Below, one piece after another: positions 10,853-14,949 of a DNA stretch of 22,271 nucleotides. A program made the translations under genes and the position numbers. Source of the DNA: Paraglomus occultum (Eukaryota > Glomeromycota > Glomeromycetes > Paraglomerales > Paraglomeraceae); assembly GCA_910592205.1 (NCBI GenBank), contig CAJVPJ010000544.1, positions 1-22,271 on the forward strand. The letters are read 5' to 3'. The first letter of the stretch is position 1. Every line of letters starts with the position of its first letter. The notes under the pieces were generated by a model. That model worked only from the letters and a program-made list of their open reading frames with translations. It was not told the DNA's origin and did not search any database.

Positions 10853-11055
10853 CAATTTTTTGTTCGATCTAAACTGTGCATTAGTGAATGTAGCGACGGT
10901 TTTTATGAACGGCTATAGAACTAGCTGAATAATGTAAATGATGTATTTAATACAATATTAATTGGTAGACTCCAATAATTGACTAAAAAAATATTATTAG
11001 AGCAACATTAGACAAATAGAACTTATCGCCAGCCATCACGTAAACGCGCGTTGGG

Positions 11056-11060
11056 TAATA
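11056..11060. repeat. Target-site duplication TAATA, left
   Basis: TAATA immediately outside the left inverted repeat, matched by TAATA at 14707-14711. The duplication could also be counted as TA only, because TA is part of both copies. Confidence 0.65.
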
Positions 11061-11086
11061 CAGTCAGGGATTTTACCAAAGATGGA
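11061..11086 (+). repeat. Left terminal inverted repeat, 26 bp
   Basis: Starts CAGTCAGGGATTTTACCAAA. It matches the reverse complement of 14681-14706 at 25 of 26 positions; the only difference is G versus A at position 21. After 26 bp the similarity drops to a scattered GTCGAT/ATCGAT. Confidence 0.9.
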
Positions 11087-11108
11087 AATCGATTCTAGAA
11101 AAATCTGA
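11082..11108 (+). promoter_or_regulatory. Upstream ORF of 8 codons, starting inside the left inverted repeat
   Basis: ATG at 11082-11084 (within the inverted repeat) opens MEIDSRKI and stops at TGA 11106-11108, 17 bases before the proposed main ATG at 11126. If transcription starts in or before the inverted repeat, this short frame could lower translation of the main protein. Presence is seen; effect is inferred. Confidence 0.3.
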
Positions 11109-11125
11109 GTCAAATTTCTCGAAAT

Positions 11126-14100
11126 ATGATTGGCTCTCACGCATTTTTACAACTTTTTACATATGCATTCTTTGTGAATTTTCACAATATTAGCGCACTG
11201 TTAAAAACCATACAGACACACAGTAAAAGACGTCTAGTTTCCATAATCACAAATAATCCCTCGCGTATAGCTTTTTTGAGAAAAGTAAATGAGACCTGAA
11301 AACCCTAGATTTGCTATGTACGTTGCTCATGAGAGTGAAATAAGAGTGAAAACTAATGACCAATTTTTAAAACCTTTTCAGTGTCCGCTTTCCAGAAACC
11401 AAGAGCGAAAGACCTTCCATGTCTTTTTGCAGACCTGGTTGAGAAGTACAATGGTGTTGGATTGAAAACATGTGAAACAAAGGAATCACAGAAATGGCGT
11501 CATGCTAGTAATCAGGAAACGGCTAAGCGCCTTACTCTTTATCATGACTATATTCCTGAACTTTCTAACTTTCATTCCATTTTAGAATTTTATTCAGTTT
11601 GTGAGAAACATTACAACCAGATAATTGTTGCTAATCATTTTTATCAACATATTGCAGGTCTTGTCCAAGAGAATAAACGATTGCGACTCAATACTGATGT
11701 AACTGATAATGTTCATCCTTCTGTTGAACTTGACAGGACAAGAAAGCTTCTTGAGTTGAGTCAGTTGGAGAATCAACAGAAATCACAATTAATAGCAGAC
11801 CTCACACAGCAAGTAGAAGATCATAGAAAGGAAATTGGAGATTTAAAAGCACTATTGCAGAAAGCGTATGATGATATTGTTAAAATTCGCGCGATGTACG
11901 AAGAGCAACACAAGGATAAGGAAATTCTTATGACACAATGGAATTCTCGATATTGTGATCAGCACAAACGCATACAAGCCATTATTGACATTGCACTACT
12001 TGAACGAGAATCTATGTATACAGATATCGAGTCTCTTATAAGGGACAATAATCGGTTTTCCTTAGAAAATTTGTTAAATTATACTCCGCAGACATGGCTA
12101 AGTAAACGTAATCAGGTTATTGTAAAATTTATTGAGACGTTAACTAACAATACTCTTAACACAGATTCCTCGAATAGCAAGAAACTTTATAAAAGAGCTA
12201 TGGCTATCGATTTAATATATGGATCAAGACACAGAAGATACATATCGGAAATAAGCCTTGCGGCATCGGCTATAAAATATTCCATTGCACGATCGAAAAC
12301 CATTATTAATATTGATGGCCATATCACAAATTCGGGAAGCTATTCTCACTTTCAAAGTTGGTTGGATGAATTGTCTGAAAGAGAAGAATCTTTGCCTAAA
12401 GGAGTCTTGCTTATGGCATTCGATAATGAACAAAAGGGTCAAAAAAATTATCTCGATCGAGGCTTCAACACAGTGACATTTCATATTGTTACCAGGTTTG
12501 TTGCTTTTAATATGGAACCGCAAAATTATATTCAACATACTAACACACCTTGGGTGTCTAGTTCTCTTAATAGATCACAATATGAAAGTCTTTTCAGTAT
12601 TACGTCTGATATGCAAGATGTGATTGAAAAAGAATTATACACATATCTGTCTGAAATTATCGATTTATTACGTGAAGAAAAAGTATCTTCAATTAATCGT
12701 ATTGATTCTTTTATAGATAACACCAGATCGAACGAACGCTCCAGTAAGAAGTGTCCTAATTGTAATGAATTAGATATTGATAATCGAAGGCAAGTCTGTC
12801 CGAAATGTAGAACGCCTTTACCTACATTAGCAGAATTGCAAAAGCAACGCGCATCCGAGTTAGAGGAAGATACATCAGACCGGTTAACAATTTATAAGCC
12901 TTATAATGTTCGTAAAGAAACTGAACCGTCCAGTTCGTCAAGAATTAGCATCACTCAGAGACAGACTGCTGATTGTGGAGTTAATGTTCCAGATATCTTT
13001 GTTCCTGATCCTCTCAACATTAACCCCAATTCAACTGCTAATGTTGAAAAAGTTCTTCTTCATATTGAGCAAATATCGGGAATTAAAGACGGTATACGTA
13101 AATGGATAGCCGTAGCATGTGATGGCATTCCGTATCATCGTATAACCAAAATAAGGGAGAAATATCCATGGTTGGTTCTCATTCCTGGCCAATTGCATGA
13201 AGAAATGAATATGCTTCGAGCATTCGTAGAATTAAATTGGTGAGCTTGTGTTATGTCTGATTACTTTATATTCATTATACTTATATATATATATAATATT
13301 CCCTCTTTTCGAAAGGGAGATCGATCTCAAACAATTCGCAATTTGCCAGGGATATAGAACGGAAAATCAGCTTGCTTACTTTAAGAAATGTAATGACCAT
13401 CACAAGTCTTGGGATTCGATTTGCAACATTTATCGCCAAGCTATGGCTATGGAACTGATGTGGCCATATGTCAACAGCCACTCTAACCCGACAGCAGATG
13501 GATATATGGCTTGGGTAAAAGAACAAAAGGATCCACTTTATCAAATAAAATTTGAACAGGTAGGATTGCTTATTCTATTGATGATATTTGTATTAATACT
13601 AATACTTATTTTAATCAATCGTTCGAATAGATATTTAGTTACCTACAAGCCATTATCAATTACAGAACAGCTATCAGAAGAAATAATCCGTTACTCAAAA
13701 GAGCTGCAAGACGAGTCTTTTCGCCGATATGGTCAGCACGACGTCATCCAATATACCGCATGATAGAAGTCACAGATGAAGTACAACGGATGCGACTTGA
13801 CCCGACTATACGAAATATTATAGAAAGAAATAATGTGGTTTCTCGATCGGGTCTTTTTAATCAGCATCAAGGGTTAGATGCAATTTTAGAAGAAATAAAC
13901 AAGACCCTGAAAACGTTGATACCACCTGTTCCACAAATACGTCACTGGAAAATCGCGGCTCGTAATTGTAAAAAATTCTTCCAGGTAAACTGATTGTTTG
14001 ATTTAAAGTATAAAGTTTTCGATCAAATTATTTACAATCATTGAATACTTAGTTACGGAACAATTTCTTTAAATCAATTGGATATAATGACGTTCAAACA

Positions 14101-14550
14101 ACTGGCCCGAGGACCCGACCAGAAATTATTGCAGAATGTCAGCGATTTCGTGTCCGTTTAAGAAAGGATAATTTCCTTAATCCGATAAACTCGAGGATTA
14201 TCTATAAAAGTTTAGGCGATGAAAATGAACTGAGTTCTCAGTTGACAAATCTTACTGATTTAGCAAAGAAATCTCGTCAAGAGTATATTATTGAAGTTTT
14301 TTATAATAACAACCCAACTACTTCTTTTAGGCCAATTCCGATTACCAAACGAGAAGCAGTTGCACAGGAAGATGAAGCTAATATGTCTAAACGAGAAATT
14401 ATTTTCAAGATAGAAGCTCTTCTTGAACAGATGAGTGAGAGTATTCGGAAGAGGTATGTTAATATAAAATTTAGAAGGCGAGATGAATTACTAAAGACAT
14501 TAGAAGAGGTAAAATCTTTAATCAATTCAGACTGTGTCGATATTCTGTAA
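11126..14550 (+). CDS. Transposase-like protein, five exons, 1,032 codons, zinc ribbon
   Basis: Exons: 11126-11284, 11396-13239, 13316-13559, 13631-13984 and 14053-14550. The introns are 111, 76, 71 and 68 nt, most with a CTAAT- or TACTAATAC-type branch site. Spliced this way there is no internal stop and every phase agrees. ATG 11126 is the first ATG after an in-frame TAG. The first exon (MIGSHAFLQLF...NPSRIAFLRK) is the least certain. Order: N-terminal region with LFADLVEKYNGVG and NFHSILEFYSVCEKHYN; coiled coil about 166-232; MAFDNEQKGQKN (Asp396); zinc ribbon CPNC...CPKC (Cys506, 509, 521, 524); ACDGIPYHR (Asp629) followed by LIPGQLHEEMNML; SRSGLFNQHQGLDAILEEIN (Asp832, Glu836/837) followed by LIPPVPQ; a basic, helical C-terminus. 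Asp396, Asp629 and Glu836/837 are my candidates for a DDE triad (inference). Probable role: nuclear transposase of the surrounding element. Alternative: a domesticated or uncharacterised DNA-binding protein. Confidence 0.8.
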
Positions 14551-14565
14551 TAAAATGACAATAAA
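14549..14565 (+). terminator. Two AATAAA polyadenylation-type signals
   Basis: AATAAA overlaps the stop codon (14549-14554) and occurs again at 14560-14565, directly after the transposase-like gene and before the right inverted repeat. This is well placed for 3' end formation inside the element. Such hexamers are frequent in AT-rich DNA. Confidence 0.4.
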
Positions 14566-14680
14566 CGTATTAGTATCATATGTCCAATCAAAATTAATTA
14601 TGTCACATGGAATAAATCTTCGAAACGTCTGGAATATTCTGATCGACAGTTCTTTGACATAAAAGTTGCGATCGACATCA

Positions 14681-14706
14681 TCCATTTTTGGTAAAATCCC
14701 TGACTG
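14681..14706 (-). repeat. Right terminal inverted repeat, 26 bp
   Basis: Reverse complement starts CAGTCAGGGATTTTACCAAA; 25 of 26 positions match 11061-11086. Followed outside by TAATA. Confidence 0.9.
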
Positions 14707-14711
14707 TAATA
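14707..14711. repeat. Target-site duplication TAATA, right
   Basis: TAATA immediately after the right inverted repeat, identical to 11056-11060. Confidence 0.65.
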
Positions 14712-14949
14712 ATGATAATGAAATGATTGTAATGTGTGATAATATTTCATAAATTGTAACTTTACCGAATTCGTTTCTTAAACTTTTTAATCGAAATAAC
14801 GGCGAGTGTTTTTGTTTTTCAAAATCAAGCCACTTTGATCTTTCAACCGTAAGATATCTGAATTTGGGCATCTGAAAATAATGTCAAGATTTCTATCGCA
14901 TTATTAGAAAAGCGGCCTGGAGGCACACAGTTGTTTGGTCTTTTTTAAC

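Follow-up and report, generated by a model that had tools for sequence, protein, structure and literature searches.

The element and its target site

The window analysed here, a stretch of 22,271 nucleotides from the glomeromycete Paraglomus occultum (contig CAJVPJ010000544.1), contains a DNA transposon with terminal inverted repeats (TIRs), which carries a single five-exon gene and is bordered on both sides by TAATA (Table 1). A preliminary description, made from the letters of the sequence, had seen a complete DNA transposon with a multi-exon transposase at this place, and the evidence bears this out, the transposase being probably of the DDE type. The span of 11056-14711 given there includes both duplications, and the element proper extends over 11061-14706. 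Its 26-bp ends are identical in inverted orientation at 25 of 26 positions, the same count as before, whereas no more than 18 of 26 were reached when the two end regions of 200 bases each were shuffled 40 times. We consider the element very probably an autonomous cut-and-paste transposon (TIR, DDE), belonging to a lineage with DUF6589 relatives that could not be placed in any named superfamily.

The target site was read from places in the host genome (32.3-Mb assembly, 1,408 contigs) that lack the insert. A search of this assembly for a conserved small-subunit rRNA pattern gave no match. With both flanks fused at one TAATA as the query, eight matches were obtained: the two flanks of the window itself, four matches that span the junction and two that do not. 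The spanning paralogues lie on C1327 (84% identity), C1156 (81%), C1084 (83%) and at a second place on C1156 (75%). Three of the four carry a single TAATA without a gap at the junction in the alignment, and the fourth has diverged there to ATATAA. The transposon therefore lies in an interspersed repeat, represented in the window by 10861-11060 and 14712-14911, which is present elsewhere without the insert. The duplication is 5 bp long, because with a duplication of TA alone (2 bp) the fused sequence would contain three surplus bases; of the two lengths proposed earlier, 5 bp or TA, the first thus stands and the second falls.

Copies in the host genome

The same site preference is found at other ends in this genome, in which the TIR pattern with up to three mismatches occurs at 29 sites, compared with 3 for the reversed control pattern. 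Among the 21 ends starting with CAGTC, the flank has T at -2 in 20, A at -4 in 17 and A at -1 in 13 cases (25, 19 and 16, respectively, for all 29 TIR-like ends); TA precedes 13 of these 21 ends and is absent before 8. The flank consensus over the 21 ends, nAnTn, is a palindrome about -3, the centre of a 5-bp site, and this symmetry is what a 5-bp duplication predicts.

Two ends were recognised in three copies, those of the window, C173 and C87. The C173 copy is internally deleted and has its own 5-bp duplication (TAGTA/TAGTA), and is thus the kind of further two-ended copy that the preliminary description had anticipated, as it had the existence of more copies in general; C1011 retains an intact left end and has lost its right terminus. 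The exon-2 protein gave at least 43 matches on 27 contigs and the exon-4 protein at least 20, the window being counted in both. The second-longest exon-2 match (C27, 365/627 residues) contains two stops, and some shorter ones are stop-free but partial; a second full-length intact copy was not found in the host genome with either protein.

Two additional pairs of sequences were noted. L062 (C62:44700-45520) and L063 (C100:12300-13080) are 68% alike over approximately 700 bp and have CAGTCAGGTGTTTTACCAG ends, and CAGTCAGG ends are common to C62 and C100. No transposase match was found in C62:41700-45520, the stretch checked on C62, and the pair perhaps represents a second family with the same ends. 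L066 (C49) and L067 (C1348) share the same CAGTCAGGGAGATTTCC start and are 79% alike over 104 bases; their ends are those of another subfamily.

Gene model and selection on the transposase

The transposase model comprises 1,000 codons including the stop, that is, 999 amino acids; the gene had previously been described as splicing without a stop, which holds, to 1,032 codons, which does not. Introns 2 to 4 are supported by the uninterrupted alignment of the relatives P0006 and P0010 over them, and P0003 aligns without interruption at junction 4 and irregularly at junctions 2 and 3. None of the three supports exon 1 or intron 1 (47 nt). An alternative acceptor of intron 2 was rejected, as it gives stops in the reading frame. 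Seven other open reading frames of the window had no match above cutoff in a Pfam scan, and scanning the left end for bacterial promoters, which is not expected to inform here, returned nothing.

Table 1. Features of the transposon and its gene, with positions in the window
Feature	Position	Strand	Remark
Left target-site duplication, TAATA	11056..11060		single in 3/4 paralogous empty sites
Left TIR, CAGTCAGGGATTTTACCAAAGATGGA	11061..11086	+	25/26 identical to right end
Exon 1	11289..11334	+	holds the putative start; the weakest stretch of the gene model; not supported by three relatives compared
Exon 2	11382..13239	+	coiled-coil region, first candidate Asp, zinc ribbon, second candidate Asp
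D363 of FDNEQ, candidate first catalytic Asp	12422..12424	+	follows beta strand 308-313 in the P0006 model
Zinc ribbon, CPNC...CPKC	12752..12808	+	from the sequence; between first and second candidate Asp
D596 of CDGIP, candidate second catalytic Asp	13121..13123	+	follows beta strand 530-534 in the P0006 model
Exon 3	13316..13559	+	part of the helical insertion ahead of the Glu helix
Exon 4	13631..13984	+	holds the Glu helix
E803 of LDAILEE, candidate catalytic Glu	13889..13891	+	conserved in relatives
Exon 5	14053..14550	+	C-terminal region through stop codon
Right TIR	14681..14706	-	25/26 identical to left end
Right target-site duplication, TAATA	14707..14711		single in 3/4 paralogous empty sites

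The transposase gene shows purifying selection in comparison with other copies. Ratios of nonsynonymous to synonymous divergence (dN/dS), calculated after Nei and Gojobori for copies from the host genome on gapless codons with stop codons excluded, are 0.12 (C27), 0.08 (C173), 0.15 (C87) and 0.14 (C44) relative to the window gene, at synonymous divergences (dS) of 1.2-2.1, which are near saturation. C1011 (0.36) and C303 (0.37) both stand at a dS of about 0.05, and C96, C839 and C148 yielded no ratio, their synonymous sites being saturated. The low dN/dS among copies indicates that the lineage has been kept functional, probably until recently. Our data support recent movement of the transposon, and recent rather than current movement, because the closest other copies differ at a dS of about 0.05. 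The copy had been called young and possibly active, and only the former is upheld.

Relatives of the transposase

The 999-residue protein matched 56 proteins in a search in which scoring was restricted to the 7,994 candidates with the most words in common with it. All 34 rows with an organism name come from Diversispora epigaea, Gigaspora rosea, G. margarita or Scutellospora calospora, of which D. epigaea and G. rosea were looked up as members of the Glomeromycotina. The named close relatives are unannotated proteins of arbuscular mycorrhizal fungi. Three annotated Diversispora gene models among the relatives (P0001, P0002 and P0003) have internally duplicated stretches, perhaps prediction or assembly artefacts.

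The lineage extends further through the distant member P0056, which led to P0058 in a search yielding 17 proteins; P0058 in turn matched 13 proteins, of which the one with an organism name is from an oyster. P0058 and P0006 are 25% identical over 762 columns. A tree of 20 rows (the set A3 without four partial or irregular rows, plus four fungal-type rows and the window) places the window in one group with seven rows of fungal type (100/100), and the P0058 group, ten rows in all, holds together as well (100/99). Two of its rows are on very long branches, and 'animal' for unnamed rows is our own label.

Some members of this assemblage match the Pfam family DUF6589 (PF20231), for which Pfam states no function ('function unknown'). 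At E<=0.01 it was matched by 19 of 51 members of the set A2, and P0002 (37.6 bits), P0056 (32.6) and P0068 (32.9) exceed the cutoff of 27; in contrast, the window exons, scanned apart, remain below it (best 13.2 bits, exon 4). The earlier view that the element belongs to no nameable family thus holds as far as it could be tested, with the amendment that its relatives fall under DUF6589. The literature searched, whose scope leaves out most subscription journals and Repbase Reports, makes no mention of DUF6589, and PF20231 occurs in it only in an unrelated physics context. No relative was found in the viral contigs scanned.

Predicted fold and proposed mechanism

The structure model of a relative has long N-terminal helices (124-157 and 161-188), which fit the coiled coil described previously, and the zinc ribbon of the same description is present. 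In a second-look structural alignment with models of two distant members, the Hermes and P element transposases came first: Hermes heads the list for the fungal model, and the P element ranks above Hermes for the P0058 model. A Foldseek search against PDB and viral models gave best E values of only 0.31 and 0.32, searching the PDB sequences with the fungal profile produced eight weak matches (best E 0.19) without a transposase, and NCBIfam matched none of four proteins. The predicted structures of relatives, together with conservation, point to an RNase-H-like core with D363, D596 and E803 as the putative catalytic triad. After strand 5, between the second candidate Asp and the Glu, 13 of the 16 rows covering the position read GxxH and the others AxxH, ExxH or GxxQ; the window protein has GQLH. 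The proteins P0058, P0062 and P0064 carry a C2H2-like finger directly after the second candidate Asp, which is not present in the fungal proteins read.

The single protein of the element is best explained as a transposase in which a long, entirely helical insertion would interrupt the predicted RNase-H-like core, a layout known from hAT and the P element. Most likely, this protein recognises the CAGTCAGGG ends, excises the element and joins it to the target with a 5-bp stagger at nAnTn sites, preferably TANTA, and gap repair of this stagger generates the 5-bp duplication.

Alternative explanations

Two observations qualify the reading as an autonomous cut-and-paste transposon with a 5-bp duplication. 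The C87 copy has two ends with flanks that do not match (CAATA/CATTT), and the empty sites, precisely joined at one TAATA as the preliminary description had foreseen for sites without the insert, are paralogues at 75-84% identity and not alleles. A first alternative is a TA-duplicating element, of the Tc1/mariner or PHIS type, that landed by chance in TAATA. Tc1/mariner ends often begin with CAGT, as the ends do here, and TA stands at both borders. Yet the empty sites fit a 5-bp join, so that a TA duplication is refuted unless all three paralogous sites happen to have the same unrelated deletion of 3 bp; furthermore, the flank motif has its axis of symmetry in the middle of the 5-mer, CAGTC ends without a preceding TA occur, and no Tc1/mariner Pfam model is among the listed matches of the window exons and the A2 members. 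We give this explanation almost no credence. Scarcely better placed, and highly improbable in our view, is a domesticated host gene with the ends as relics: the copy in the window is the only full-length intact one found in the host genome and its protein is under purifying selection, but selection between copies is also seen in a living transposon lineage, and the perfect duplication, the nearly identical ends, the host repeat without insert and partial family copies at a dS of about 0.05 all speak against domestication.

The rival with most in its favour is a divergent member of hAT, for example of the hAT5 kind, rather than a separate lineage. It is suggested by the first rank of Hermes for the fungal model, by hAT families with 5-bp duplications (5, 6 and 7 bp are reported for hAT5, hAT6 and hAT7; PMC12730594) and by the His after strand 5, which stands at the place of the hAT motif C/DxxH (PMC10045372). 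However, the Cys/Asp of this motif is mostly Gly in the window family and never Cys or Asp, and the P element outranks Hermes for P0058. DUF6589 is matched by 19 A2 members, and no hAT model, that of the C-terminal dimerisation domain included, is among the 25 listed of the 29 families matched by the 51 members at E<=0.01. The sole hAT-like_RNase-H match seen (P0033, residues 889-967) lies behind the stretch common with the window family and may reflect a fused gene model. Membership of hAT is therefore possible but unlikely, and on the modelled structures the lineage is best read as lying near hAT and the P element.

Comparison with named superfamilies

With hAT (Hermes), the element shares short inverted ends starting with CA and a small duplication and, according to the model comparison, an RNase-H-like core with a helical insertion; it differs in the 5-bp nAnTn duplication in place of the usual 8 bp and in having a zinc ribbon that separates the first Asp from the second. 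The P element duplicates 8 bp, and ISCth4 is of the IS256/MULE type. Neither was matched in the PDB search with the fungal profile, and the duplication lengths of the P element, MuDR and IS256 differ from the 5 bp of the window element. Reported duplications are 4-10 bp for MuDR/IS256 and 4 or 5 bp for Ginger2 (PMC10045372), and 5 bp for Transib (PMC8355894). KDZ elements (Zisupton, Dileera) were rejected, since an 8-bp duplication, as described for Zisupton and a Dileera family (PMC12730594), would be expected and 5 bp were found.

The Transib-related comparison group resembles the element in its CA..TG ends and 2-5 bp duplications (PMC12730594), and by a RAG1-like N-terminal region in two relatives. 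The C(2)C and H(3-4)H arrangement of Transib/CMCT between the second Asp and the last Glu was not seen in the fungal rows read, and the local C2H2-like finger that occurs at this place in some rows on the P0058 side is arranged differently from Transib/CMCT. The window lineage is not among the 19 named transposase superfamilies with profiles in a curated Rhizophagus library, as excerpted. Excerpts of the literature on new superfamilies, 5-bp duplications and N-RAG-TP contained nothing that matches the window element (PMC8647823, PMC11075540, PMC12730594, PMC10045372, PMC8355894, PMC4411706, PMC2996935, PMC7204232, PMC10294476).

A RAG1-like region in two relatives

The importin-binding region (PF12560, cutoff 23.3 bits) of RAG1, the enzyme behind antibody gene assembly, was matched by P0068 (33.9 bits) and P0071 (47.5 bits), in which it stands ahead of the core common with the window protein. 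P0071 also matched the RAG1 N-terminal domain in the PDB (E 5.5e-5). P0072 remained below the cutoff, six of the nine proteins scanned, some of them incomplete, had no match, and the four window exon frames scanned (exons 2 to 5) gave none at E<=1. Panchin and Moroz reportedly described N-RAG-TP of Aplysia in 2008. As cited by other papers, N-RAG-TP is a transposon of a mollusc and contains sequence similar to the RAG1 N-terminus. P0068 and P0071 resemble it in having such a region, which was not found in the window exons scanned. A Chapa domain common to Chapaev transposons and the N-terminal part of RAG1 is likewise reported. As a tentative and rather doubtful extension, DUF6589-type proteins could form an unnamed DDE superfamily of fungi and animals, whose fungal-type branch makes 5-bp TANTA duplications and whose other branch carries the transposon form of the RAG1 N-terminal region; the front half of the vertebrate V(D)J recombinase would then come from this superfamily, and not from Transib, or have been carried by it as well.

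Implications

Our results make of a domain of 'function unknown' a transposase lineage that can be tested, as its ends and target site are defined and candidate catalytic residues are at hand. The lineage may explain part of the unclassified repeats in mycorrhizal fungi; in Rhizophagus irregularis, unclassifiable repeats extend over 32% of the genome (PMC8647823). The RAG1-like region in two relatives opens the origin of the RAG1 N-terminal half to direct comparison, and the intact copy with its known ends could serve as a laboratory transposition system.
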